This document shows, piece after piece, positions 1 through 21,809 of a stretch of 64,000 nucleotides of DNA. The translations under genes and the position numbers were made by a program. Source of the DNA: Microbacterium oxydans (lineage in GTDB: Bacteria; Actinomycetota; Actinomycetes; Actinomycetales; Microbacteriaceae). The notes under the pieces were generated by a model. That model worked only from the letters and a program-made list of their open reading frames with translations, did no database searches and was not told the origin of the DNA. The stretch lies in NCBI RefSeq assembly GCF_000956405.1, contig NZ_JYIV01000013.1:18291-82290 (forward strand), in the 5' to 3' direction. Every line of letters begins with the position of its first letter. Within the stretch, counting starts at the first letter, position 1.

Positions 1-689
1 GCGTCCGCCCGCGCCCAGGCCAGGATCACGTCCAGCAGCCGAGCGAGCACGAGCACCGAGGTCGCCTCGTCGACGGGGGTGGCCGCGGCCGGACCGGACT
101 GCTGCCATGCCTCGGTCGAAGCGGGTGCGCTGCTGGCGGCCAGCCGTCGCGCGGACACCTGGGCCGAGGTCGGGTCGTGCTCGTCGAGCGCGAGCGGATC
201 GATCAGGATGCTCTCGCCCTCACGGTACACACGCAGCCAGGCGACACCCCGCAGGGGAAGCATGTCGAGGTCGGCCCACCGACGACGGTCGTGCGCATCC
301 TCGGCATAGGCGACCACGAGGGAGGCGTCCCCCGGCAGCGCGGACGCCGGATCGAGGACGGTGACCCGCGCGCCCCAGGCCTGCAGCACGCGTTCGAGCT
401 CATCGACGAGTGGGCCTGCTCCCAGAAGGCAGACATCGCGGCGTTCGTCCGGCCAGCGGCGAAGTGCATCCGCGGACTCGCGCTCCTGCACCTCGACCGT
501 CAGGCGGCCGAGGAAGGCGGAGGATGTGCCGTCCACAGCACGGTCGAGAGCGTCGAACAGCTCGGCGGGTGGTGCGTCGATCAGGACGAACCGTCCGGTG
601 CGCAGGCGGATCCGGGGGCGGCCGTCTGCGCCGAGGACGAGATGGGCTCCCGAGTCGGGGAGCGGCAGGATACGGGAGTCGGAAGTCAT
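1..689 (-). CDS. TOMM/azole RiPP maturation protein, E1-like leader-binding subunit (partial)
   Basis: This frame is open from an ATG at 689 to the window edge, giving at least 229 residues with no stop, so the C-terminus is missing. The N-terminal ~80 residues look like a small beta-rich domain. They are followed by a degenerate Rossmann segment (LLGAGPLVDELERVL, about residues 88-102), then strands and an Ala-rich stretch. This layout resembles the ThiF/E1-like 'TOMM precursor leader peptide-binding' (cyclodehydratase partner) proteins, which present a precursor to a YcaO enzyme. The gene lies directly downstream of a 32-residue precursor-like ORF on the same strand, separated by a strong hairpin. 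No classical CxxC zinc pairs are seen in the visible part. Family assignment is inference from this pattern and context. A YcaO domain may follow in the same protein or in the next gene. Confidence 0.6.
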   Translation of the reverse strand, partial: MTSDSRILPLPDSGAHLVLGADGRPRIRLRTGRFVLIDAPPAELFDALDRAVDGTSSAFLGRLTVEVQERESADALRRWPDERRDVCLLGAGPLVDELERVLQAWGARVTVLDPASALPGDASLVVAYAEDAHDRRRWADLDMLPLRGVAWLRVYREGESILIDPLALDEHDPTSAQVSARRLAASSAPASTEAWQQSGPAAATPVDEATSVLVLARLLDVILAWARAD

Positions 690-709
690 GGATTCTCTCG
701 GTGAAGGGC

Positions 710-735
710 CCGGCCGGGCGCGAACGCCCGGCCGG
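710..735 (-). terminator. UUCG-capped hairpin between precursor and maturation gene (attenuator-like)
   Basis: A perfect 11-bp stem (710-720 with 725-735) is closed by a tetraloop that reads UUCG on the minus-strand transcript. It lies 39 nt past the precursor stop and 21 nt before the next start. No T-run follows, so it is more likely a partial terminator or mRNA-stabilising structure. Such an element would let the peptide be made in excess over its enzymes, a usual arrangement in RiPP operons. The function is inferred. Confidence 0.6.
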
Positions 736-774
736 ACTGGAGTGCGCTCGAGAGCGCGACGGAAGGATCCGCGA

Positions 775-873
775 TCAGTCGAACGGGTTCTCGACCAGTG
801 CGTTGGAGTGCGATGCCGACAGGTGCGCCAGCTGCTCGGACTCTTCGATCTCGGCGAGGATCTGCTTTTCCAT
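775..873 (-). CDS. RiPP precursor peptide, 32 aa (candidate metallophore precursor)
   Basis: A short ORF encodes MEKQILAEIEESEQLAHLSA followed by SHSNALVENPFD. The ATG is preceded by a strong ribosome site (AGAAGGAG, 6 nt upstream). Residues 1-18 form an acidic amphipathic leader-like helix. The tail holds Ser19-Ala-Ser21-His-Ser23 and ends Asn-Pro-Phe-Asp. There is no Cys or Thr, so azole chemistry would use Ser (oxazoles/oxazolines). A His between two Ser residues would leave an imidazole beside the heterocycles, a plausible metal ligand set. It sits directly upstream of a TOMM maturation protein and faces a FecCD-type importer across a Fur-family box. The peptide is too short for most gene callers. 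The RiPP role is inferred from size, position, ribosome site and partner gene; the product is unknown to me. Confidence 0.7.
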   Translation of the reverse strand: MEKQILAEIEESEQLAHLSASHSNALVENPFD

Positions 874-946
874 TTCGTTCTCCTTCTGTGAGGTTTCCGA
901 CCCGCGGGGTGCGGGGCGGGTCCACGGTGGGACGAGATCGACCCTA

Positions 947-977
947 ATTGATAATGATTCTCAATATCTACTAGTCT
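947..977. promoter_or_regulatory. Fur-family (Zur/Fur-type) operator overlapping a divergent promoter
   Basis: Positions 947-965 form a 9-1-9 inverted repeat (ATTGATAAT-G-ATTCTCAAT) with a single mismatched pair. The core at 949-963 fits the actinobacterial Zur pattern TGAnAATnATTnTCA exactly, and 950-968 also matches 16 of 19 bases of the classical Fur box. On the plus strand, TTGATA (948-953) and TAGTCT (972-977) make a -35/-10 pair with an 18-bp spacer. Transcription would start at about the ATG at 985, giving a leaderless mRNA. The operator covers the -35 and lies upstream of the precursor on the other strand, so it could repress both directions. Whether Zn or Fe is sensed cannot be told from sequence. 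Confidence 0.75.
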
Positions 978-984
978 GGCGACC

Positions 985-2190
985 ATGCCCTCCTCGCTTC
1001 CCCTCCTCGCCGCTGATCACCGGGCCGGGACCGTCTTCGAGATTCATGGCGACTCCCGGCGTGTCGCGGTGGCCGACAGCTGGCTCGCCGAGCACGCCGG
1101 ATTCCTCCGCCTGCCCTCCGGCCCGAACGGCCGCTGGGCGTTCGCCGACGACCGCGGCGGTGCTCTGGTCGTCGGCGGCGGCGACACCGTGCGACGCATC
1201 CCGATCGCCATCCCCGCCGAACACCTCGCCTGCGACCCGTCTGGTCGTCACGTCGTCGTCTCCTCCGGCCTGGGGGCGAACGAGGAAGCCTGGAGCGACC
1301 TGGTCACCGTCGTCGATCTCGCGACCGACTCATCCGTGCGGTTCCGGGCCCGAGTCGGCGAGCCCGGGGTCGTCGTCGCTCCCGACCAGGCCTCCGGCGA
1401 GCCGACGATCGTGCTCCGTCACCGCGAACCCGGGGCCGTCGAAGCGATCCCCCTCGCCGCGGCGCTCGCGGTCGGACCCCACGCCCCGGTGCTCCACGGA
1501 CGCGTTCTCACCGACATCGCCGCGGACGGCCACGGCGACGTGATCGACCCCGTGTCCGGCATCATCGGCATCGCGACGAGCCGCGGGCTCGAGCGCTTCG
1601 TCGTCGACGGGGGTGCACCTCGGGCCATCGGCAGCATCCCCTGGCCCGTCGACGGACGGGCGTACTACCTGCGTCTCGCCGGCGACACCGGGCGGGCGAC
1701 CGGGATCGTGCGCGGGGGACCGGCCGCCCCTGGATCGTGGCCGGAATGGACGAACACGTTCGTCGAGATCGACCTCGCATCCGGCTCCTCCCGTGCCGTA
1801 CCGCTGCCCCCGGGACTCGCGTTCCGGTTCGCGCTGGCTGCAGGCGTCGCGGCGGTCGCCGTCATCCACCCCGACGGAGATGCGGTGGTCGTGATCGATC
1901 GCGAAGACGCACGAGTCTCACAGATCGTCCCGATCCCGGCGATGGCCCACCCCCCTCGCGCCGGTCGGCTGCCGTGGGACGGTGTCGACGGCCGCCCCGC
2001 CCAACGCCGGTCCATCGCGATCGACCCCGTCGGCGGGACGATCGCCGTCACCAGCGGCGGCGACGGCACGATCCATCTCCTCCGCGGGACGGACATCTCG
2101 ACGGTCGAGCTCCCCACCCCGCTCGACGAGGGCGGGCATCTGCTGTGGGCGTCCGAGGGCGACCGCGTCGACGACCTGGTGGGCCGATGA
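985..2190 (+). CDS. Beta-propeller-like protein of RiPP/uptake operon, unknown function
   Basis: A 401-residue soluble protein with no signal peptide or membrane segment. It consists of repeated short beta-strand modules with Asp-Gly/Ser-Gly turns (for example near residues 31-60, 85-115, 300-345 and 350-385), which suggests a YVTN/WD-like propeller. I do not recognise a named family. It is the first gene after the Fur-family operator. Its stop overlaps the start of an S9 peptidase (ATGA), and that peptidase also has an N-terminal propeller, so this protein may be a relative of that propeller without the hydrolase. Possible roles are binding the modified peptide or metal complex in the cytosol, or assisting the peptidase; both are guesses. 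Confidence 0.6.
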   Translation: MPSSLPLLAADHRAGTVFEIHGDSRRVAVADSWLAEHAGFLRLPSGPNGRWAFADDRGGALVVGGGDTVRRIPIAIPAEHLACDPSGRHVVVSSGLGANEEAWSDLVTVVDLATDSSVRFRARVGEPGVVVAPDQASGEPTIVLRHREPGAVEAIPLAAALAVGPHAPVLHGRVLTDIAADGHGDVIDPVSGIIGIATSRGLERFVVDGGAPRAIGSIPWPVDGRAYYLRLAGDTGRATGIVRGGPAAPGSWPEWTNTFVEIDLASGSSRAVPLPPGLAFRFALAAGVAAVAVIHPDGDAVVVIDREDARVSQIVPIPAMAHPPRAGRLPWDGVDGRPAQRRSIAIDPVGGTIAVTSGGDGTIHLLRGTDISTVELPTPLDEGGHLLWASEGDRVDDLVGR

Positions 2191-3968
2191 ACACGCATCG
2201 GGGAGTGCTCGACGATGCCCTCACCCGCGCCGAGCACCACGGTCGGCCTGGTCTTCCACTCGGCGGCTTCGCACTGGGGCGTGCGGACGGGCGCACCCGC
2301 CGCGGCATCCATCGTCTCGACGGTTCGACGGTGATCGAGCCGGACGGACACCTCCATCGGATCTTCCCCTCCCCCGACCGTCGCCTCATCGCGGTGGAAT
2401 GGGCGCCCACCGCCGACGAGAACGCCGTCCTCGGCCTCGTCGACGTCGCCGCGGGCACGCTGCACCTCCATCACGACATCCGCCTGCGCTACGACACGGT
2501 GCTCTGGACGGCCGACTCGCGGAGCCTCGACGTGGTCGCCAGCCGCGACCGCCAGCTCGTGACCCTCGACGTGGAAACCGGCGAGACCCGGGTGGCTCCC
2601 CTGGCGAATGAGGGCCGGCTGCGACTGTTCCCCGGGGGAGCGAGTGGCCTGCGCGCCCTCAGCTCGACAGGGGCGGGAACCACTCTGACCGACCGGGCGA
2701 CGGGGACGCCGCTGGGCCGGTGGTCCGCACTGTTCCGCGCCGGCCCGCTCGGCTCCGGGGTGCTCGTGTGGCACGACAGGGGCTTGGATGCCGTGTCGAT
2801 CGACGCCGCAGCCGACAGCGCAAACGACAGCACACTCTGGCACTGGCATGACCCCGACGTGCGGATCGTCGACGTCGCGGTGCAGGACGATCGGGTGGTG
2901 GCGCTCGCCGTGGCGGAAGGGCGGAGCGTGCTCATCGACCTCGACGACGGCATCGAGGTCGGCCGCGCAGAACCTGCCTCTTCCGACGCCGATGTGCTCA
3001 CCACGACGATGATCGGCGTCGACGACGGCGGGCTGCATCTGGGCGTCGAAGGCCCGCTCACGCCACCCCGCATCGTCGAGCGCGCACAGCTCGGGACCAC
3101 GATCGCGCCGCCCTCCCCGTACTCCCGCGCGACCACCGTGCGCCACGACATCCCGGCCGCCGACGGCACGACCCTCACGGTGCACGTGACGTCGCCGAGC
3201 ACTGCGGAGGGGATCACGGGCGCGGGGACGACAGATCCGCTGCCGATGATCCTCACCTGCTACGGCGGCTTCGGCGTGCCGCACCTGCCCGTGTTCGAAC
3301 CGACCGTGCCCGCGTGGATCGAGGTCGGCGGTGCCTACGCCTTCGCCCAGCTCCGTGGTGGGGGCGAGCGCGGTGAGGCCTGGCGCGAAGCCGGATACGG
3401 CGAGCGCAAGCACCGCACCGTCGCCGATCTCGCCGACGTCGCCCGCGGTCTCATCGCGGCCGGTGTCACCCGTCCCGATCTACTCGTCCTCGCCGGGGCC
3501 TCGCTGGGCGGGGTCGTCGCTGCCGCGTGCGCGCTCGAACATCCGGAGCTGTGCGCGGGGTTCGTGACCACAGCCGCCCCGCTCGACGTGCTCGCCCTCG
3601 AGGATCATCCGCTCGGGGCGGGCTGGCGCGCGGAGTTCGGCGACGACGGCACACCCGCGTCCCGTGCGCGACTCGGTGCGCTGTCTCCGCTCGCACGCGC
3701 CGAGTCCCTTCCGGTCGGTGCGCCGGTCCCCTCCTATCTGGGAGTGGTGCTCGGCGAAGACACCAGGGTCCTCGCCCGCGACACGCACCGGATGGTCGAG
3801 TCGCTGCGTCGGGCGGGCGGCTCGGCCCGCTCATGGACGGCAGCGGGGGCAGGTCATGGCGCGAACGAGTCCGTCGCCCTGCACGACCTCGGCCTCGCGG
3901 TGCTCGACTTCGCCGCAGAGGTCACATCGACCAGCACAGCAGGCACCACGACCGGAGACACCCGATGA
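2187..3968 (+). CDS. S9 family prolyl-oligopeptidase-like serine peptidase
   Basis: The protein has 593 residues with a start fixed by the ATGA overlap with the preceding gene. The first ~330 residues resemble the beta-propeller domain of prolyl oligopeptidases. The C-terminal alpha/beta-hydrolase domain has the usual triad: Ser439 in GASLGG (most POPs have GGSNGG), Asp525 in GEDTR and His557 in AGHG, plus an oxyanion-side CYGGFG motif. There is no secretion signal, so it acts in the cytosol. Within this operon it may remove the leader from the modified precursor, or cleave the imported metal-peptide to release metal. The triad supports peptidase chemistry; the substrate is inferred from context only. 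Confidence 0.85.
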   Translation: MNTHRGVLDDALTRAEHHGRPGLPLGGFALGRADGRTRRGIHRLDGSTVIEPDGHLHRIFPSPDRRLIAVEWAPTADENAVLGLVDVAAGTLHLHHDIRLRYDTVLWTADSRSLDVVASRDRQLVTLDVETGETRVAPLANEGRLRLFPGGASGLRALSSTGAGTTLTDRATGTPLGRWSALFRAGPLGSGVLVWHDRGLDAVSIDAAADSANDSTLWHWHDPDVRIVDVAVQDDRVVALAVAEGRSVLIDLDDGIEVGRAEPASSDADVLTTTMIGVDDGGLHLGVEGPLTPPRIVERAQLGTTIAPPSPYSRATTVRHDIPAADGTTLTVHVTSPSTAEGITGAGTTDPLPMILTCYGGFGVPHLPVFEPTVPAWIEVGGAYAFAQLRGGGERGEAWREAGYGERKHRTVADLADVARGLIAAGVTRPDLLVLAGASLGGVVAAACALEHPELCAGFVTTAAPLDVLALEDHPLGAGWRAEFGDDGTPASRARLGALSPLARAESLPVGAPVPSYLGVVLGEDTRVLARDTHRMVESLRRAGGSARSWTAAGAGHGANESVALHDLGLAVLDFAAEVTSTSTAGTTTGDTR

Positions 3969-5110
3969 GCGATTCGACAGCCGCCCTCCCCGAACGACGC
4001 GTCCGACGCCTGTCCTTCCGAAGGCAGGGGAGCCGAGAGCACGCTCTGCACCGCAGCGGAAGTCGACGGATCCTCCCGGTCGGCCCGACGGTGACGACGA
4101 TCGTCGTGCTCGCCGTTCTCGTCCTCGTCGTCTCCGCCGCCACCGGCCCCGTCGGCGTCTCCCCCCTCGATGCCGCCAAGATCGTGATCGGCCACCTGAT
4201 CCCCGGCATGCCCTGGATGTCAGACGGCACGCTCACCCCGCTGCAGGACCAGGCCGTGTGGCAGTTCCGGGTGCCCCGGTCGCTCCTGGCCGCACTTTCG
4301 GGGGCGGGACTCGCTCTCGCCGGAGCCATGATGCAAGCCGTCGTGCGCAATCCCCTCGCCGAGCCGTACATCCTCGGCGTCTCCTCGGGCGCGAGCGTCG
4401 GCGCCGTGCTGGTGATCGTCTCCGGAGGCGCCACCTTCCTCGGGCTGACGATGAGCGGTGCGGCGTTCGTGGGGGCGATGGTCGCCTGCCTCCTCGTGGC
4501 CATGCTCGCGCGCATCCGCGGAGAGCTGTCCCCGACCAGGATGATCCTCGCCGGTGTCGCGCTCGGCGCCCTGCTGAGCGCGGTGACCAGCTACCTCACC
4601 CTCACCACCGACGCCCAGAACGTCGTGAGCGTGATGTTCTTCCTGCTCGGCAGCGTGTCGGCCGCCGACATGTCAACGCTCCTGATCCCTGCGGTCGCGC
4701 TCGCGATCGCCTGCATCGCCGTGTTCGGGCTCTCCCGTTCCATGAACGCGCTGCTCGCGGGCGACGAATCGGCGCTGGCCGTCGGAGTGCGCACGACCCG
4801 GGTGCGGGGCGTGCTGCTCGTGCTCGCGTCGCTGCTGACCGGAGCGATCGTCGCGGTGAGTGGCGGTATCGGATTCGTCGGGCTCGTCGTGCCGCACATG
4901 GCCCGACTCCTCGTCGGCTCCGAGCACCGGCGGATGCTGCCGATCACGATCCTCGGCGGCGCTCTGTTCCTGATGGTCGCCGACCTGCTCGCGCGGACGG
5001 TCGCGATGCCCACCGAGATCCCCCTGGGCATCCTCACCGCCTTCGTCGGGGCTCCGTTCTTCCTGTGGTTGATGCGCAGCGGGGGCGACCGGGCGGGGTT
5101 CGACCGATGA
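3965..5110 (+). CDS. FecCD-type ABC transporter permease (metallophore uptake)
   Basis: A 381-residue integral membrane protein whose start overlaps the peptidase stop (ATGA). The N-terminal ~45 residues are Arg-rich and cytosolic, followed by roughly nine to ten hydrophobic helices. FecCD hallmarks are visible: RVPRSLLAALSGAGLALAGA, NPLAEPYILGVSSGAS, and GGIGFVGLVVPHMARLLVGS near the C-terminus. It would form a homodimeric channel, since only one permease is encoded here, unlike the two-permease locus at 17.9-20 kb. It works with the ATPase and lipoprotein immediately downstream. The substrate is most likely a metal chelate; in this context it may be the product of the adjacent RiPP genes. 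Confidence 0.92.
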   Translation: MSDSTAALPERRVRRLSFRRQGSREHALHRSGSRRILPVGPTVTTIVVLAVLVLVVSAATGPVGVSPLDAAKIVIGHLIPGMPWMSDGTLTPLQDQAVWQFRVPRSLLAALSGAGLALAGAMMQAVVRNPLAEPYILGVSSGASVGAVLVIVSGGATFLGLTMSGAAFVGAMVACLLVAMLARIRGELSPTRMILAGVALGALLSAVTSYLTLTTDAQNVVSVMFFLLGSVSAADMSTLLIPAVALAIACIAVFGLSRSMNALLAGDESALAVGVRTTRVRGVLLVLASLLTGAIVAVSGGIGFVGLVVPHMARLLVGSEHRRMLPITILGGALFLMVADLLARTVAMPTEIPLGILTAFVGAPFFLWLMRSGGDRAGFDR

Positions 5111-5889
5111 GCGTGCACTTCGACGGCGTGAGCGTCGCCCGCGGCGGACGCACGGTGCTGCACGGGATCGACCTCGAGGTCGCCACAGGCCGCATCGTGG
5201 GTCTCCTCGGCCCGAACGGCAGCGGCAAATCCACCCTGCTGCGCACCCTGTTCACGGGCCAGCGTCCGCAGCAGGGGCGTGTCCTGATCGACGGGGTCGA
5301 CGTCTCACAATTGCCACCGCGCACGCTCGCGCGCACCGTGTCCGTCATGCTCCAGGACGCCCCGTCCGAGTTCGATCTCACCGTGCGCGAGACAGTGCTG
5401 GTCGGCCGCTCACCCCATCGTCCGCCGTTCAGCCGGGACACCCCGGAGGATCAGCGCATCGTCGACCAGGCCCTGCGCACCGCGGACGTGCACGATCTCG
5501 GCGACCGACTGGTGCGTCGACTCTCGGGCGGTCAGCGCCAGCGGGTGATGCTCGCCAGAGCCCTCGCGCAGAGCGGCGAGATCCTCGTACTGGACGAACC
5601 GACGAACCACCTCGACATCGCGCACCAGCTCGATCTGATGCGTGTGGTGAGCGGCCTCGGCACGACCGTGATCGCCGCCCTCCACGATCTCAACATCGCC
5701 GCCGCGTTCTGCGACGACGTCGCGGTGATCGACGAGGGCAGGATCGTGGCCTTCGGCGCTCCGGACACCGTGCTCACCCCCGCGCTCGTCGACGAGGTCT
5801 TCCATGTGACCGCCCGCATCGCCGTCGAGGTCGACACGGGAGCACGCGCGATGACCTTCCACCCCAGACAGCCCCAACCCCTCACCTAG
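5107..5889 (+). CDS. FecE/FepC-type ABC transporter ATP-binding protein
   Basis: A 260-residue ATPase with Walker A GPNGSGKST (residues 35-43), signature LSGGQRQR, Walker B ILVLDEPTNH and the H-loop ALHDLN. These are all intact and typical of siderophore/cobalamin importers. Its ATG overlaps the permease stop by 4 nt, and the binding-protein gene follows 10 nt after its stop, so the three are translated as one importer module. It energises uptake through the upstream FecCD permease. Confidence 0.93.
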   Translation: MSVHFDGVSVARGGRTVLHGIDLEVATGRIVGLLGPNGSGKSTLLRTLFTGQRPQQGRVLIDGVDVSQLPPRTLARTVSVMLQDAPSEFDLTVRETVLVGRSPHRPPFSRDTPEDQRIVDQALRTADVHDLGDRLVRRLSGGQRQRVMLARALAQSGEILVLDEPTNHLDIAHQLDLMRVVSGLGTTVIAALHDLNIAAAFCDDVAVIDEGRIVAFGAPDTVLTPALVDEVFHVTARIAVEVDTGARAMTFHPRQPQPLT

Positions 5890-5899
5890 GAGAAGAAGA

Positions 5900-6916
5900 A
5901 TGACACCACGTACCCGATCCACCCGCCTGCTCGCCGCCGTATCCGTCGGCCTCGGCGCGATCGCCCTCACCGCCTGCGGCAGCGGAGTCTCCACAGGAGC
6001 AGCACCCGTCTCCTCCGAAGGGGCGATCAGCATCGAGAACTGCGGCCGGACCGTCGAGATCCCGGCCACGCCGACGGCCGTCGTCGGACTGCACCCCTCG
6101 CAGACCGAGCTGCTACTACGCCTGGGTCTCGCCGATTCGCTCGTCGGACAGGCGCAGGCCACCGCGGAGGAGTTGCCGAGCGACGTCGCGGACCTCGCGG
6201 CCGATGTGCCCGTCATCGGCGGAGACGCCCCGCCCAGCCGGGAGGAACTGCTCGCCGTCGAACCCGACTTCGTCTACTCGCCGACCACCTACGAGTTCAC
6301 CGCGGAGCAGGGCTTCGCCAGCATCGAGCAGCTCTCCGAAGCCGGCGTCGCCGCGTACACCGCGACCGGCGGATGCTTCGACCGGCGCATGGAGGGCACG
6401 GTCGACGACCTCTTCATCGACCTCGAGAACCTCGGCGAGATCTTCCATGTCGAGGACGAGGCGAAGGACCTGATCGAGTCGTCCAAGGCCGAGCTCGCGA
6501 CCGTCGAGGCGGCGCTCGACGGCCAGGATCGTCCCCGCGTCGCTCAGATCTTCGTGGAGGGGACGACCCTCACCGCGATCGGCGCCGGCATCGAGTACGA
6601 CATCCTGAAGCGCGCCGGTGCCGACAACGTCTTCACGCCGGACGACCCCGCGTTCGCCGACTTCTTCGCCGCCGAGATCACCCCGGAGTCACTCGCGTCA
6701 GAGGCACCGGACGCGATCGTCTTCGCGGTGTCCGACCCCGCGCACGAGGCAGCCGTCCGCTCCTACCTCGCCGCGACGTTCCCCGACATGCCCGCCGTGC
6801 GCGACGGCCGACTGATCGCGGTGCCCTCGACCGACCTGTTCCCCGGCACACTCGGCAACGTCTCGGCCGTGCGACTGATCGCCGAGGGCCTCCACCCCGA
6901 CGTCGTCTTCGACTGA
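5900..6916 (+). CDS. Metallophore-binding lipoprotein (FepB/BtuF-like)
   Basis: A 338-residue extracytoplasmic binding protein. A hydrophobic signal ends in the lipobox LTAC with Cys26, so it is membrane-anchored outside the cell. The body fits the helical-backbone type III binding-protein fold: PTAVVGLHPSQTELLLRLGL early, then GDAPPSREELLAVEPDFVYS, and a C-terminal lobe ending in GNVSAVRLIAEGLHPDVVFD. A strong ribosome site (AGGAGAAGAAG) precedes the ATG. It is the last gene of the operon and is followed by a hairpin. It delivers the ligand to the FecCD/ATPase pair just upstream. The ligand is unknown. Confidence 0.9.
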   Translation: MTPRTRSTRLLAAVSVGLGAIALTACGSGVSTGAAPVSSEGAISIENCGRTVEIPATPTAVVGLHPSQTELLLRLGLADSLVGQAQATAEELPSDVADLAADVPVIGGDAPPSREELLAVEPDFVYSPTTYEFTAEQGFASIEQLSEAGVAAYTATGGCFDRRMEGTVDDLFIDLENLGEIFHVEDEAKDLIESSKAELATVEAALDGQDRPRVAQIFVEGTTLTAIGAGIEYDILKRAGADNVFTPDDPAFADFFAAEITPESLASEAPDAIVFAVSDPAHEAAVRSYLAATFPDMPAVRDGRLIAVPSTDLFPGTLGNVSAVRLIAEGLHPDVVFD

Positions 6917-6934
6917 GCAGCACTGCCGCGCCTG

Positions 6935-6966
6935 CACCCCCGGAGAGCACACGCCCTTCGGGGGTG
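6935..6966. terminator. Hairpin between convergent uptake operon and toxin gene
   Basis: An 8-bp GC-rich stem (6935-6942 with 6959-6966) with a 16-nt loop lies between the lipoprotein stop and the convergent RelE stop. There is no T-run; actinobacterial terminators often lack one. It could serve both directions. Confidence 0.5.
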
Positions 6967-6971
6967 TGGCG

Positions 6972-7235
6972 TCAGATCTCGTAGACGTCTCGACGGTGCG
7001 CGACACGCACCAGGGTCACGAGCACCTGATCGTCGATCACTTCGTAGAGCACGCGGTAGTCGCCGATGCGCACCCGCCAGGCATTGTCATAGCCGGAGAG
7101 CTTTCGGACACCGGGAGGGCGGGGCTCCCGTTCCAGCTCAGCGATGCCGACGAGAATCCGTCGACGGATCTGCGCGTCGAGTTTGCGTATCTCCTTGGCG
7201 GCCGCTGTGGTGAACTCGACCCGGTAGCTCGTCAC
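6972..7235 (-). CDS. RelE/ParE-family toxin
   Basis: An 87-residue basic protein with the RelE layout: an N-terminal beta-hairpin/helix (TTAAAKEIRKLDAQIRRRI), the PPGVRKLSGYDNAWRVRIGDYRVLY core, and a short C-terminal strand with HRRDVYE. RelE-type toxins cleave mRNA on the ribosome, and the conserved Arg/Tyr residues used for this are present. Its start overlaps the antitoxin stop by 4 nt, the standard antitoxin-first order. Being next to a RiPP locus is probably chance. Confidence 0.88.
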   Translation of the reverse strand: MTSYRVEFTTAAAKEIRKLDAQIRRRILVGIAELEREPRPPGVRKLSGYDNAWRVRIGDYRVLYEVIDDQVLVTLVRVAHRRDVYEI

Positions 7236-7492
7236 GCAACTTCCGTGATGAGCTCATCGAGCGACACCCGCTGACCATCATCCGCAGCCTTGGCGGCCGC
7301 GAACTCGGCCGCATCGCGCGCGGCTTCGAGCTCTTCGAGCAGTTCCAGATCAGCCACGCTGATCACGACGGCCGTGAGCTTGCCGTGGCGGGTGACGCCC
7401 ACGCGCTCGGAACCGTAGGCGACACCTCCGAGAACGTCGGCCAGGCTGTCGCGAAGATCCTTCGACGGGACGCTGCGGCTGATCGTGTTCAT
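7232..7492 (-). CDS. Phd/YefM-family antitoxin
   Basis: An 86-residue protein with the Phd/YefM N-terminal DNA-binding fold (SRSVPSKDLRDSLADVLGGV, then RVGVTRHGKLTAVVISVADLELLEEL) and an acidic C-terminal tail that would wrap the toxin. It is translated just ahead of, and overlapping, the RelE-type toxin. A perfect palindrome in its promoter suggests autoregulation by the antitoxin or the complex. Confidence 0.88.
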   Translation of the reverse strand: MNTISRSVPSKDLRDSLADVLGGVAYGSERVGVTRHGKLTAVVISVADLELLEELEAARDAAEFAAAKAADDGQRVSLDELITEVA

Positions 7493-7498
7493 GTCACC

Positions 7499-7521
7499 AT
7501 TCTACCCCTTATGTACATAAG
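7499..7521 (-). promoter_or_regulatory. Toxin-antitoxin promoter with palindromic operator
   Basis: CTTATGTACATAAG at 7508-7521 is a perfect 14-bp palindrome. TAGAAT at 7504-7499 on the minus strand is a good -10, so the palindrome lies in the -35/-10 spacer, where a bound antitoxin would block RNA polymerase. The ATG follows 6 nt after the -10, so the leader is very short or absent. Confidence 0.65.
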
Positions 7522-7539
7522 AGCGAGAAGATACCTGAA

Positions 7540-7929
7540 TCAGGCCTGCATGACGGCGAGGACGTTGCCCGCGGGGTCGCGGAACCACGCGATGTCCGGT
7601 CCCCGCCCGTTGCCGCGGACGATGCCGCGCTCGTCGGAGGGGAACTCCTCGTCGCTGTAGATCTTCGTCTGCACGCCCCGGGCGATGAGCTCATCCACGG
7701 CGGCGTCGACATCCGCCACCGGGAAGTTCAGGATCGTGAAGCTCGCCGGCGTGTGGTTCGGCTTCGGGTACACGAGGATCGAGCCGCCGCGAGGCAGGCG
7801 CAGGTCGAGGAAACCCATCGCGTTGCGCTCGACGTCGAGCCCCAGGGTCGTGCCGTAGAACTCCTCCGCCGCGTCGATGTCGTCGACGCTGAATCCGCTG
7901 AACGCGTTGTCCGCTGTGAAAGCTGCCAT
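7540..7929 (-). CDS. VOC (glyoxalase/bleomycin-resistance-like) family protein
   Basis: A 129-residue single VOC domain with two beta-alpha-beta-beta-beta halves: [19 protein letters not shown] at the N-terminus, and [18 protein letters not shown] then [14 protein letters not shown] at the C-terminus. VOC proteins are metal-dependent isomerases, dioxygenases or drug-binding proteins, and the sequence does not say which. The gene stands alone between the toxin-antitoxin pair and the Van-like ligase, transcribed with the latter's strand. Confidence 0.8.
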
Positions 7930-17059: not shown

Positions 17060-17866
17060 TCAGCCCCGCGCCTCACCCAGTCTCCAGTACCCCGAGAACG
17101 TGATCCGGTCCTTGGAGACGCCACGATCGACCAGGTGTCGGCGCAGCTCCTGCACCGCGAGTCGCTCTCCGCACACCCACGCATAGTCGATCACCTCGGG
17201 AAGCTCAGCGGCCCGTACCGCCTGCTGCAGCCTCGCCCCCGGCAACTCACCCCGGCGTTCGACCCAGGTGACGGCGCCCGCGAGATCCTGTCTCTCCGCG
17301 GCGTCCGCGATCTCGATGAAGACGTGGGTCTCCGAACCCCCCGTCTCCTCGAGGATGCGGGCGATCGCGGGCAGTGACGACTCATCGCCGATGATCACCC
17401 GCGCGCGAGTCTCGGGCAGCGGCGCATACAGTGCCGTGCACTCGCGGATGCCGAGAGCCGAGCCGACGCGCGCCCGTCCGGCGAATCGAGTTCCGGGACC
17501 CTCGTCACCGTGCACGACGAAGTCGACATCGATCTCGCGAGCCTCGGGACGGTGGTCGCGCACCGTGTACCAGCGCAGATCCGGCCGCTCCGTCTCGGGG
17601 ATGGCCGCGACCGCCGCACGGATGTTCTCCGTCCCATCGTTCGCGGGCAGCACGAGCGGAGCGCTCTCGTCGCGGGGCAGCAGCAGGCCGAGGTACTCGT
17701 CCGGTCCCGCGGGCGCGTAGTCGGCGAACTCCACCGCGGACATGGTGAGCCGCCGCATGTGCGGGGTGAGATCGCGCACGGCCGTGACGCGGGCCGCGAA
17801 GACGCGAGCGCCGGAGCGGCGAGGACGCTGGGGAGGACGGACGCGGTGGATGGTGCGCTCAGCCAC
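17060..17866 (-). CDS. Siderophore-interacting protein (SIP), FAD-dependent ferric reductase
   Basis: A 268-residue SIP-family flavoprotein. The N-terminal FAD domain has TPHMRRLTM, RWYTVRDHRPEAREIDVDFVVHGDEGPG (the RxYTxR and HGxxGP motifs), and the C-terminal NAD(P)H domain ends in YWRLGEARG. SIPs reduce and release iron from imported ferric siderophores in the cytosol. It overlaps the upstream permease gene by 8 nt and closes the operon controlled by the box at 19956, so it works on whatever the two permeases import. Confidence 0.92.
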   Translation of the reverse strand: MAERTIHRVRPPQRPRRSGARVFAARVTAVRDLTPHMRRLTMSAVEFADYAPAGPDEYLGLLLPRDESAPLVLPANDGTENIRAAVAAIPETERPDLRWYTVRDHRPEAREIDVDFVVHGDEGPGTRFAGRARVGSALGIRECTALYAPLPETRARVIIGDESSLPAIARILEETGGSETHVFIEIADAAERQDLAGAVTWVERRGELPGARLQQAVRAAELPEVIDYAWVCGERLAVQELRRHLVDRGVSKDRITFSGYWRLGEARG

Positions 17867-18908
17867 GCCGAGCCCCCTCTCTCCAGAGCAGCCACAGGAA
17901 GAACGCGCCGCCGACGGTGATGGTGACGACGCCGACCGGGATCGGCGCCGGGAAGATGTTCTGCGCGAGCAGGTCGCTGGTGAGCAGCAGCAGCGCCCCC
18001 ACGAGTCCCGAGGCGAGGAAGCTCGTCGCGCCGGTCAGACCCCTGGCGATGTGCGGGGCGATCAGCGCGACGAACGAGATCGGCCCGGCCGTGGCGACGG
18101 CGACCGCCACGAGCAGAGTGGCTGCCGCGAGCAGGATCCATCGCGCGCGCACGGTCCGCACGCCCAGCGCGGTCGAGACGCTGTCACCGAGTGCCATCAT
18201 CCGCGCAGCCGGCGCCGCCCGGACCAGGAGCGGGATGATCAGGAGCAACGCGATCAACGCCGGGAGCAGGTCACCCCATCCGCGGCCCTGCAGCGAGCCG
18301 ATCAGCCAGGTCTGCGCCGTGGTCGCGCTCGCGACGAACACCTGGGTCAGCACGTAGTCGACCACGGCCATCGCGGTGGCCGACAGCGCGACACCGGTGA
18401 GGATCAACTGCACACCGTGGAGCCCGGAACGCGCGGTGAACAGCACGATCACGCCCGCGATGACGAGGGCACCGATGACTGCTCCGAAGGCCGCCTGCGC
18501 CAGGGATCCGCCCAGCACGAGCATCACGACCACCGCGCCCACCGAGGCGCCGCTGCTGATCCCGATCACGTCGGGGCTGGCGAGAGGATTGCGCGTCAGG
18601 CTCTGGAACACGGCACCGGCGACGGCGAGGCTCGCACCGACGACGATCGCGACGAGGCTTCGCGGCAGACGGCGACCGAGCACGAAGAACCCGTCCAGTC
18701 GCTCCGGCGGGCGACCGAGCAGCGTCTCGATCAGTGCGGCCGGGGTGACGATGTACTCGCCGATCATGAGCGCGGCGATCAGCAGCACCAGCAGGGCACC
18801 AGCGAGGATGCCGCACACGAGGGCCGTGCGATGGCTGAACCGGAAGGACCAGCGCTCTCCGCGGAGAACACGGTCGTCGGACGTCAACGCGACGGTGCGC
18901 GGGCTCAT
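17859..18908 (-). CDS. FecCD-type siderophore ABC transporter permease (FepG-like)
   Basis: A 349-residue permease with about ten hydrophobic helices and the family motifs LPRSLVAIVVGASLAVAGA, NPLASPDVIGISSGASVGA and GPISFVALIAPHIARGL. It overlaps the upstream permease gene by 4 nt and the SIP gene by 8 nt. With that permease it forms a heterodimeric channel for a ferric siderophore, energised by the ATPase at 21.0 kb. Confidence 0.93.
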   Translation of the reverse strand: MSPRTVALTSDDRVLRGERWSFRFSHRTALVCGILAGALLVLLIAALMIGEYIVTPAALIETLLGRPPERLDGFFVLGRRLPRSLVAIVVGASLAVAGAVFQSLTRNPLASPDVIGISSGASVGAVVVMLVLGGSLAQAAFGAVIGALVIAGVIVLFTARSGLHGVQLILTGVALSATAMAVVDYVLTQVFVASATTAQTWLIGSLQGRGWGDLLPALIALLLIIPLLVRAAPAARMMALGDSVSTALGVRTVRARWILLAAATLLVAVAVATAGPISFVALIAPHIARGLTGATSFLASGLVGALLLLTSDLLAQNIFPAPIPVGVVTITVGGAFFLWLLWREGARRG

Positions 18909-19954
18909 GAGATACCCGCCGTCCGCTTGCCGACCACGAAGGCGATGAGCAGCGGGCCGCCGATCAGAGCCGTGACGATGCCGACCTGCACCTCTCCGCC
19001 TCCGCCGATCACGCGGCCGAGAGTGTCCGCCAGAAGCAGCATCGCCGGGGCTGCGAGCAGCGACAGCGGCAGCACGATGCGCAGGTCGGATCCGACAAGG
19101 CGACGGAGCAGATGCGGGATGACCAGACCGACGAACGCGATAGGTCCGGCGATCGCGGTCGCCGTTCCGCAGAGCAGCGTGACGGCGACGAGCACGAGCG
19201 CGCGCACGACACCGGGCTTCACTCCGAGCGCGATCGCGCTGTCGTCACCGAGTGCCATCAGGTTCAGTGCGGGCCCGAGCAGCAGAGCGAGGATCACCCC
19301 GACGACGATGAAGGCCACCAGCGGCAGCGCCTCTTCCACCGGTCGGGCGGTGAGGGAGCCTACTCTCCAGAACCGGAACGCGTCGAGCACCGTCTCATCG
19401 GTCAGCACGATCGCCTGCGAGAGCCCGGCCAGGATGGCCGAGAACGCGACCCCCGCGAGGATCAGTCGCACGGGCGATCCCGAGGCGAACCGGGTGCCCG
19501 AGAACCAGAAGATCACCGCGGATGCGAGAGCCGCTCCGGCGAGCGCGAGCCAGATCGTGCCTCCGACGCCGAGGGCGCCCAGCACGCTCATGCCCGCGAC
19601 GACGCCGAACGAAGCGCCGGCGCTGACGCCCAGCATCCCCGGGTCCGCGATCGGGTTGCGGGTGAGCGCCTGCATCAGCACACCGGCAGCACCGAGCGCG
19701 ACGCCGCAGATGACCGCGTTGACGGTGCGGGTCACGCGCAGCTCGCCGACGATGTTCAGGACGTTCTGGTCACCCGTGCCGAACAGCGAGAGCACGACCT
19801 CGTCGAGGGGCACGAACCGCGCGCCGACGGCGAGACTCGATGCCAGCGAGATCGCCAGCAGGGCCACGACCAGGGCGATGCCGAACCGCGTGGGGAAGCG
19901 GGATGCCGCGAGCGGGGTGCGACGGCGCGCGACGACGACCGGTTCGGAACTCAT
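18905..19954 (-). CDS. FecCD-type siderophore ABC transporter permease (FepD-like)
   Basis: A 349-residue permease with motifs VNAVICGVALGAAGVLMQ, NPIADPGMLGVSAGASFG and GPIAFVGLVIPHLLRRLVGSD. It is the first gene of the leftward operon. The start codon lies one base from the DtxR-type box, so the operator sits on its promoter and the leader must be short or absent. It is the partner of the next permease and, across the divergent promoter, of the binding lipoprotein. Confidence 0.93.
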   Translation of the reverse strand: MSSEPVVVARRRTPLAASRFPTRFGIALVVALLAISLASSLAVGARFVPLDEVVLSLFGTGDQNVLNIVGELRVTRTVNAVICGVALGAAGVLMQALTRNPIADPGMLGVSAGASFGVVAGMSVLGALGVGGTIWLALAGAALASAVIFWFSGTRFASGSPVRLILAGVAFSAILAGLSQAIVLTDETVLDAFRFWRVGSLTARPVEEALPLVAFIVVGVILALLLGPALNLMALGDDSAIALGVKPGVVRALVLVAVTLLCGTATAIAGPIAFVGLVIPHLLRRLVGSDLRIVLPLSLLAAPAMLLLADTLGRVIGGGGEVQVGIVTALIGGPLLIAFVVGKRTAGIS

Positions 19955-19955
19955 A

Positions 19956-19974
19956 TTTGGATAGCCTAACCAAA
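19956..19974. promoter_or_regulatory. DtxR/IdeR-type iron box
   Basis: The 19-bp TTTGGATAGCCTAACCAAA is a palindrome with one central and one paired deviation and fits the IdeR/DtxR consensus (TTAGGTTAGGCTAACCTAA). It lies between divergent permease and binding-protein genes and should repress both with Fe2+-loaded DtxR/IdeR. It differs from the Fur/Zur-like operator of the first uptake locus. Confidence 0.85.
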
Positions 19975-19994
19975 CATCACTAGGGTTGTGAGAC

Positions 19995-20948
19995 GTGAAC
20001 AGACCTCATCGAACGCGCTTCCGTCCGCTCGCCACCGCTGTCGCCTCTCTGGCCGCGATCACCCTGATCGCCACCGGATGCTCGAGCACTCCCGCAGCGG
20101 AGGAATCCGCTCCCGCAACGGACACGAGCTATACCGTGGTGCACGCGATGGGCGAGACGGAGTTCGAGTCGGTCCCCGAGCGGATCGTCGTGCTCGACTC
20201 CCCGCAGATGGACGCGCTGGTCGCCCTGGGCATCACTCCGGTCGGCGCACCGGAGATCGGGGCCGGACGCGGCTTCCCGGCCTACCTCGCCGATGAGCTC
20301 GACGGCACCGAATCGATCGGCTTCATCGCCGAGCCCGACGTCGACGCGATCGCGAACCTCGCCCCCGACCTGATCATCGGCTCGAAGGTGCGGCACGAGG
20401 CGCTCTACGAGGAGCTGTCGGCCATCGCGCCCACCGTCTTCTCGGAGGACACCGGCACCAACTGGACCGAGCAGGCCGTGCTGACCGCCGCCGCCGTGGA
20501 CCAGAGCGACAAGATGGACGAGCTCATCAAGGGCGTCCAGGATCGAGCGGCCGAGATCGGCTCGGCGGTCGAAGCCGACGGCACCACCGCGTCGATCGTG
20601 CGCTTCCGCTCCGACAACTTCCGCCTGTACGGGCCCGGCACGTTCTCGGGATCGCTGCTCACCGACATGGGATTCGACCTGGGCGCAGACCGCGACTGGA
20701 ACGAGTACTCGATGATGGAGCTCAGCCCCGAGCTCTACGAGCAGATCGACGGCGACGTGGTGTTCTACATGAGCCCCGGTGGAGACCCCACCGCGACCAC
20801 GCAGGAGCGAATCACCGGCCTGTGGGGCGCCCAGCCCGGCCCTTCCGGCGACAAGGCCTTCCAGGTGGAGGACGACACCTGGATGGTCGGCATCGGCGTG
20901 ATCGGTGCCAACCTGGTGATCGACCAGGTCGAAGACCTGCTCGGCTGA
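19995..20948 (+). CDS. Ferric-siderophore-binding lipoprotein (FepB-like)
   Basis: A 317-residue binding protein with a GTG start, 21 nt after the DtxR box. The signal ends in ATGC with lipobox Cys29. The N-lobe has ERIVVLDSPQMDALVALGI and the C-lobe has the typical periplasmic-binding helix region. It captures the siderophore outside the membrane for the two permeases on the opposite strand. It is followed by a long hairpin, then the ATPase gene. Confidence 0.9.
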   Translation: MNRPHRTRFRPLATAVASLAAITLIATGCSSTPAAEESAPATDTSYTVVHAMGETEFESVPERIVVLDSPQMDALVALGITPVGAPEIGAGRGFPAYLADELDGTESIGFIAEPDVDAIANLAPDLIIGSKVRHEALYEELSAIAPTVFSEDTGTNWTEQAVLTAAAVDQSDKMDELIKGVQDRAAEIGSAVEADGTTASIVRFRSDNFRLYGPGTFSGSLLTDMGFDLGADRDWNEYSMMELSPELYEQIDGDVVFYMSPGGDPTATTQERITGLWGAQPGPSGDKAFQVEDDTWMVGIGVIGANLVIDQVEDLLG

Positions 20949-20953
20949 TCCCT

Positions 20954-21012
20954 TTCGAATCGCCCGAATGGTTCCCTCCCACCCGAAAAGGGAACCATTC
21001 GGGCGATTCGAA
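20954..21012. repeat. Long intergenic hairpin repeat, copy 2
   Basis: A perfect 24-bp inverted repeat (20954-20977 with 20989-21012) with an 11-nt loop. It sits between the binding-protein and ATPase genes of one operon, so here it cannot be a simple full terminator. Its arm shares about 20 of 23 bases with the hairpin at 12561-12621. Confidence 0.8.
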
Positions 21013-21026
21013 CACCCGGAGGAACG

Positions 21027-21809
21027 ATGACCACGCCGCACCCGGCACTCGAAGCTCGCGGACTCGTCGTCGCCTACGACGGCAAGGTCGTCGTCGACGG
21101 CGTCGATCTGGCGCTGCCGGAGGGGTCGTTCACCGTGATCCTCGGGCCGAACGCCTCGGGCAAGTCCACCGTGCTGCGCACCCTCGCCCGCGTGCTGAAG
21201 CCCGAATCCGGCGACGTGCTCTTCGACGGCCGCGCGCTCGGCGAGTACGGCTCCAAGGAACTCGCCCGCAGGATGGGACTCCTGCCACAGGATGCCATCG
21301 CTCCCGAGGGGATGCGGGTCGCAGACCTGGTCTCGCGCGGCAGGTATCCCCACCACTCCGCACTGCAGCGGTGGACGGCCGCCGACGACACCGCCACGCG
21401 CGAGGCCCTCGCCGCGACGAACACCACCGATCTCGCCGAGCGCTACGTGGACCAGCTCTCCGGCGGGCAGCGGCAGCGCGTCTGGGTCGCGCTCCTGCTC
21501 GCCCAGCAGACCCCGGTGATGCTGCTCGACGAGCCGACGACCTTCCTCGACATCGCGCACCAGTACGAGCTGCTCGACCTGCTGCGGGACCTGAACGCGC
21601 AGGGCAAGACCGTCATCGCGGTGCTGCACGACCTCAACCAGGCGGCACGGTATGCGGACAACCTCGTGCTCATGAAGGAGGGGCGCGTGGTCGCCACCGG
21701 GACCCCGTCCGGGCTCATCACGGCAGAGCGCGTGGGAGACGTCTTCGGCATCGACGCGGTGGTGACACCCGATCCGGTGACCGGCACCCCGATGGTGGTC
21801 CGGCGGTGA
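21027..21809 (+). CDS. Siderophore ABC transporter ATP-binding protein (FepC-like)
   Basis: A 260-residue ATPase with Walker A GPNASGKST, Q-loop LLPQDAIAPEGM, signature LSGGQRQRVW, Walker B VMLLDEPTTFLDIAHQ and H-loop VLHDLNQA. GGAGG precedes the ATG. It completes the importer formed by the two FecCD permeases and the lipoprotein. It is separated from the lipoprotein gene by the long hairpin, which may lower its expression relative to the binding protein. Confidence 0.93.
   Translation: MTTPHPALEARGLVVAYDGKVVVDGVDLALPEGSFTVILGPNASGKSTVLRTLARVLKPESGDVLFDGRALGEYGSKELARRMGLLPQDAIAPEGMRVADLVSRGRYPHHSALQRWTAADDTATREALAATNTTDLAERYVDQLSGGQRQRVWVALLLAQQTPVMLLDEPTTFLDIAHQYELLDLLRDLNAQGKTVIAVLHDLNQAARYADNLVLMKEGRVVATGTPSGLITAERVGDVFGIDAVVTPDPVTGTPMVVRR

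Follow-up and report, generated by a model that had tools for sequence, protein, structure and literature searches.

A Zur-type operator and a candidate ribosomal zincophore pathway in a streptamidine-family gene cluster of Microbacterium oxydans

The stretch of Microbacterium oxydans DNA considered here (64,000 nucleotides of contig NZ_JYIV01000013.1, assembly GCF_000956405.1; G000:C13:18291-82290, "the window" in what follows) begins within a cluster of genes for a ribosomally synthesized and post-translationally modified peptide (RiPP). Gene calls and open reading frame (ORF) lists place the rest of this longer cluster in the left flank, L002 (a window coordinate is the L002 coordinate less 18290). 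The cluster almost certainly belongs to the streptamidine (ami) family. The operator at its divergent promoter appears, from its sequence, to be a Zur (zinc) box, a feature that is new relative to the published ami work, and the cluster is very probably under Zur control. Conservation of that box, taken together with the genes around it, makes a ribosomal zincophore pathway the best reading: the cluster probably makes, exports, re-imports and cleaves a small amidine peptide that is likely to scavenge zinc when zinc is scarce.

The assignment to the streptamidine family starts from the precursor: the 32-residue ORF scores 66.5 bits against the NCBIfam model NF040714, "streptamidine family RiPP" (cut-off 40). 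With it stand an E1-like AmiB, the AmiC hydrolase, the AmiT1/T2 exporters and a FecCD importer, and the gene content agrees with that of the published ami cluster (Russell et al. 2021, PMC8442711). The YcaO enzyme, AmiD, shares 59-62% identity, across most of its sequence, with the YcaO proteins of four other precursor-bearing clusters (pairwise identity only). An earlier interpretation of the window (the sequence-only reading) had described its genes as arranged divergently about a Fur-family operator, as indeed they are, and had looked for YcaO and exporter genes beyond the left edge, where a YcaO gene and two ABC exporter genes are now found; a dehydrogenase forecast for the same flank is half borne out, in that a gene occupies the AmiE position but no Pfam or NCBIfam model matches its product above 11.2 bits. 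The precursor is also conserved in related loci, as that reading would have it (profile matches, and 76/80 relatives). It erred in knowing of no described system of this form, the streptamidine family having been published in 2021, and its oxazole-His product gives way to a different chemistry: the characterized homologue from S. albidoflavus, whose role its discoverers left unknown, is an HLSATH hexapeptide with a six-membered amidine between His1 and Leu2 and with Ser and Thr unmodified (PMC8442711), for which reason an azole is not taken as the default product. Streptamidine-type clusters are reported from >230 species; they contain FecBCDE-like genes, amiA-E and amiT1/T2, while amiX, which precedes the importer, is conserved in part (PMC8442711). 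NF040714 matches occur in 3/299 genomes of the taxonomic family and 3/396 of the phylum (both counts including G000), and in 25/199 genomes from the genus of G405. G437, a genome from the same order, carries the ami cluster three times, each time with the same precursor (L019, L020 and L021), and two tandem cores are present in precursors of Nocardiopsis and of a Glycomyces record (L057-L060, L062-L064).

The published Zur consensus, tGaNNatSatNNtCa, derives from ChIP-chip (chromatin immunoprecipitation on microarrays) in S. coelicolor (PMC5472717), and the operator TGATAATGATTCTCA (949-963) agrees with it at all positions. Elsewhere in the 3.69-Mb genome only one site lies within one mismatch of TGANAATNATTNTCA, and it stands directly before znuABC-zur, an operon for ZnuA, an ATPase, an ABC-3 permease and a Fur-family regulator. 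The best Protein Data Bank (PDB) matches of this regulator are 3mwm, S. coelicolor Zur, and the zinc regulator FurB (2o03), both far above Fur proteins; a Zur protein is encoded in the genome. (A two-mismatch site of the same genome, L134, heads no zinc gene.) Of 14 sites with at most one mismatch that were examined in five genomes, 7 belong to ami genes and 6 to genes for ZnuA, ABC-3 permease or COG0523 proteins, and 1 lies elsewhere. (A technical note: the 6 count one tandem pair twice, and further such sites in G878, G879 and G881 are left out.) The metal control that had been proposed for this promoter is thus supported at the level of sequence, and refined to zinc rather than iron. Iron control is rejected: scanning with a DtxR/IdeR consensus finds no DtxR-like box within 3 mismatches at 874-984 of the window, and none before amiA in 76 related loci (best, 8 of 19). 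The window itself supplies a built-in contrast to the ami promoter: a second FecCD-type importer, siderophore-like (two permeases, substrate-binding protein, ATPase; 17859-21809), has at its divergent promoter a DtxR/IdeR-like box with 2 mismatches (19956-19974; 0.03 matches expected) and no Zur-like box within 3 mismatches.

The box travels with the cluster. The relatives compared are the best 80 of 377 loci, a set weighted towards Streptomyces and close relatives of the query; a regular expression finds the precursor in 76 of them and none in L053, L055, L056 and L061. (In reaching 76, one spurious precursor match in L065 and the second of the repeats in L063 and in L064 were set aside; the expression fixed S-x-ALVENP, which accounts in part for the constancy of those residues, while QLAH, Ser3, Ala4 and His6 were free.) Upstream of amiA in these 76 loci the box, starting 68-123 nt before the ATG (median 80), has no mismatch in 15, one in 24, two in 29 and three in the rest; that is, 68/76 lie within two mismatches and 76/76 within three. 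First-order Markov shuffles (1580, the three dropped rows included) come within two mismatches in 2 instances and within three in 26; random windows from the same loci, real second boxes still included, do so in 22/3040 and 38/3040. Scored on the published consensus, 31 of the 76 have no mismatch, 22 one, 18 two, 4 three and 1 four. A first set of 31 precursor loci had yielded a box within two mismatches in 30/31 (the two sets overlap: L012/L120 and L013/L101 appear to be the same genomes). Where the importer and amiA operons are separate, a second box at the amiX/importer promoter lies within two mismatches in 39/39 loci (38 Streptomyces and L081), against 2/840 shuffles; this set was cut from 42 by removing L115, with amiA 180 bases off, and L053 and L061, which are of divergent layout and without a tblastn precursor match. 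Importers split off further away have a box within three mismatches in 7/8 loci and within two in 3/8. The motif-B relatives (NF040715, 4/299 genomes) have it within two mismatches in 4/4. COG0523 neighbour genes, found in 11/80 loci (one of them the source organism's own), have a box within two mismatches in 4/11 and within three in 5/11.

Some further observations belong beside these counts. The motif-B precursors (L139-L142) contain two repeats of VLSAPQGPGTNALVHNPFA, with a core without the His-x-Ser-Ala-Ser/Thr-His pattern. In L013 a COG0523 (CobW_C) GTPase gene (6798-7829, minus strand) adjoins the ami cluster and has its own Zur-like box at 7845-7859; in Nocardiopsis metallicus (L133) a Zur-like box separates the ami importer from a divergently oriented ArsR-type regulator gene (1647-1940, plus strand).

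The cluster reads amiT2-amiT1-amiE-amiD-amiC-amiB-amiA on the minus strand and, across a 111-bp divergent promoter, propeller-S9-FecCD-ATPase-substrate-binding protein on the plus strand (Table 1; left-flank genes come from a codon-score caller plus ORF lists, amiE having been seen in an ORF list). A Microbacterium oxydans locus among the relatives has the same layout and an AmiD 96% identical. With the S. albidoflavus J1074 ami cluster (MIBiG BGC0002115) the cluster of the window shares the precursor family, AmiB, AmiC, AmiD, a gene in the AmiE position, AmiT1/T2 and a FecCD-type importer, and the cores are near-identical (HLSATH there, HLSASH here). Unlike in J1074, the importer genes diverge from amiA and include one permease instead of two, and an S9 peptidase gene is interposed between propeller and importer; the word "peptidase" is absent from the main text of PMC8442711, as is any mention of Zur control.

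Table 1. Features of the ami cluster (window coordinates unless prefixed L002)
Feature	Coordinates	Strand	Basis
amiB, E1-like partner of YcaO enzyme	1..689, continuing leftward; whole gene L002:18179-18979	-	predicted model resembles McbB
amiC, S15/CocE hydrolase	L002:17193-18182	-	family models
amiD, YcaO	L002:15793-17196	-	PF02624 141.7 bits; TIGR03604 194.3 bits, below its cut-off 219.25
amiE, dehydrogenase-like by position	L002:14621-15796	-	position
amiT1, CydDC-like ABC exporter	L002:12981-14624	-	family models
amiT2, CydDC-like ABC exporter	L002:11287-12984	-	family models
amiA, streptamidine-family precursor, predicted core HLSASH	775..873	-	NF040714; core placed by comparison with S. 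albidoflavus HLSATH
Zur-type operator TGATAATGATTCTCA in divergent amiA/amiX promoter	949..963	.	consensus match
amiX-like beta-propeller, AztD-like fold	985..2190	+	amiX name from position
S9 (prolyl oligopeptidase family) peptidase, Ser439-Asp525-His557	2187..3968	+	PF00326
FecCD-family permease	3965..5110	+	PF01032 307 bits
ABC importer ATPase	5107..5889	+	PF00005
Substrate-binding protein, lipobox LTAC by inspection	5900..6916	+	PF01497 77.7 bits

AmiE resembles the genes at the same position in 43/80 loci; in the window's genome the protein contains, at about residues 250-290, a low-complexity stretch of repeated ARDQAD-like units. Directly after the gene for the substrate-binding protein lie a RelE/ParE-type toxin gene (87 aa) and a Phd-type antitoxin gene (86 aa), both at 6972-7492 on the minus strand. 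Exporter genes follow AmiD in nearly all loci, the misses falling on short contigs: AmiT1 in 75/80 and AmiT2 in 74/80 (raw tblastn counts of 79 and 78 include cross-matches to the importer ATPase).

The propeller offers a further link to zinc handling. The best solved fold for the predicted AmiX model is the zinc chaperone AztD, entries for which rank first. The zinc site in the pore of AztD is made up of three histidines (His124/167/218); AmiX, for its part, has five nearly invariant histidines. Only a likeness of fold is claimed: membership of AmiX in the AztD family is rejected, the family model NF038015 having no match in G000 at E <= 0.001 and hhalign being marginal; hhalign against one AztD sequence gives nothing, and AmiX profiles run against Pfam and against PDB sequences find nothing convincing. 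The AztABCD system is also Zur-controlled and its propeller has the same overall fold; AztD, however, is a periplasmic or cell-surface protein whose target is a ZnuA-type binding protein, while AmiX has no signal peptide by inspection (PMC6689063 for AztABCD). The S9 peptidase likewise has none. Its Ser-Asp-His triad is kept in 34/34 aligned proteins (the window's own and those of 33 loci, L074 being excluded by length), and it is present in 34/37 non-Streptomyces loci (not found in L081, nor in L056 and L075, whose contigs are short).

The proposed pathway may be set out as a sequence of steps: 1) Zur, when loaded with zinc, would keep both operons repressed, a repression that zinc starvation would lift; the box is observed, the response expected. 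2) AmiB, AmiD, AmiC and AmiE would convert the HLSASH core to an N-terminal amidine peptide, if they act as does the published homologue. 3) AmiT1/T2 are predicted to export the peptide. 4) The importer (substrate-binding protein, FecCD permease and ATPase) is predicted to take its zinc complex back. 5) In the cytosol, cleavage of the peptide by the S9 peptidase would follow, and the zinc would pass to the AztD-fold propeller, as co-regulation, the intact triad and the fold suggest. The streptamidine hexapeptide, as isolated, may then be what remains after use, and not the form that binds zinc. A wider proposition is offered tentatively, as something we should rather doubt than affirm: that streptamidine RiPPs of motif A and motif B are all zincophores of the Zur regulon, the chelator being longer or oxidised, exported, zinc-loaded, re-imported, then cleaved, by S9-type peptidases or others, and relieved of its zinc by an AztD-fold propeller in the cytosol, with streptamidine as what is left over. 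Two published observations sit oddly with streptamidine as an end product: it does not appear unless the importer genes amiF1-F4 are present, and AmiE is indispensable even though streptamidine carries no oxidation (PMC8442711). Each would be explained by a working chelator, longer or oxidised, that is trimmed to the isolated hexapeptide only after export and re-import.

Several observations weigh against zinc acquisition. At the promoter, eight of the 76 amiA boxes have as many as three mismatches; L021, one of the three cluster copies of G437, is without a box (it has apparently lost the promoter stretch and the start of the propeller gene, judged by eye); and L132, one of the 14 sites in five genomes, heads no zinc gene. 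The sequence kinship of AmiX with AztD is marginal (hhalign profile-profile, 22.6%), and AmiX is not found in 6/80 loci, of which four (L067, L072, L073, L084) are on long contigs. The S9 peptidase is found in 0/43 Streptomyces loci, so that S9 cleavage is no general step. The substrate-binding protein and permease resemble F420-0/B12/siderophore types, not ZnuA, and the usual cargo of FecCD importers is a chelate of iron or of a B12-type cofactor. For the amiF1-F4 requirement, polarity of the deletion or some other indirect consequence would be a simpler account. In the published tests streptamidine bound none of seven metals, zinc, cobalt, nickel and copper included; a delta-amiD mutant grew as wild type under metal starvation, which may reflect redundancy with ZnuABC; and AmiX is dispensable for production in Streptomyces (PMC8442711).

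One can, alternatively, retain zinc as the timing device and make the peptide a signal or a competition molecule, with the importer and the S9 peptidase serving to sense, recycle or detoxify it. That would reconcile a Zur box with the published failure to bind metals, the importer and peptidase could act as immunity or recycling functions, and the discoverers, having guessed at metal import from the FecBCDE genes and found no support for it, themselves propose signalling or development (PMC8442711). We nevertheless consider it unlikely: no antibacterial or antifungal activity of streptamidine was found (PMC8442711), and the AztD-like propeller and the COG0523 neighbours suggest zinc handling. 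It is much harder to credit a Zur-controlled metallophore for several metals or for another metal, cobalt, nickel or copper, replacing zinc. The B12 permease BtuC and the F420-0 type are indeed among the nearest importer models, and the published assay shows no zinc binding; the same assay shows no cobalt, nickel or copper binding either (PMC8442711), and the AztD-like fold of AmiX speaks against it. Slighter still is the chance that Zur binds the box of a cluster for saving zinc or buffering it within the cell, with a peptide that never leaves: the seeming lack of signal peptides on AmiX and S9 fits, as does the fact that Zur typically controls intracellular zinc proteins of the COG0523 type (PMC6103462), but the exporter genes after AmiD and the lipobox of the substrate-binding protein do not. 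The least probable candidate, an iron siderophore under Fur or DtxR control, has in its favour the FecCD/FecBCDE kinship of an importer that the literature names an "iron transporter" and against it the iron-box scans, the sharing of one box by the ami promoter and znuABC-zur, and a negative chrome azurol S (CAS) assay (PMC8442711).

The openly licensed PubMed Central (PMC) literature, judged from titles and the starts of abstracts, contains no zinc link of streptamidine clusters, reports elsewhere being possible. Separate elements of the proposed zincophore pathway have precedents. Methanobactin is a RiPP metallophore, for copper, and lasso-peptide clusters with an isopeptidase combine a RiPP with an S9-type hydrolase and an importer; the modifying enzymes of both differ from those of the ami cluster, and we know of no Zur control in either. 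Coelibactin, the zincophore of S. coelicolor, is biosynthesized under the same class of Zur box; it is made by a non-ribosomal peptide synthetase, however, and its product and enzymes are unrelated to those of the ami cluster (PMC5472717).

What the analysis adds is, in the first place, a variant ami layout with an S9 peptidase, confined to non-Streptomyces among the loci compared. For producers of streptamidine-type peptides generally, the conserved Zur box points to zinc as the metal and to zinc starvation as the growth condition, and it offers a reason why a single mutant may look normal: znuABC remains. As far as sequence can tell, these widespread peptides likely help bacteria to gather zinc; if that is true, they would constitute a ribosomal class of zincophores, and their clusters would mark, in genomes, competition for zinc among actinobacteria.
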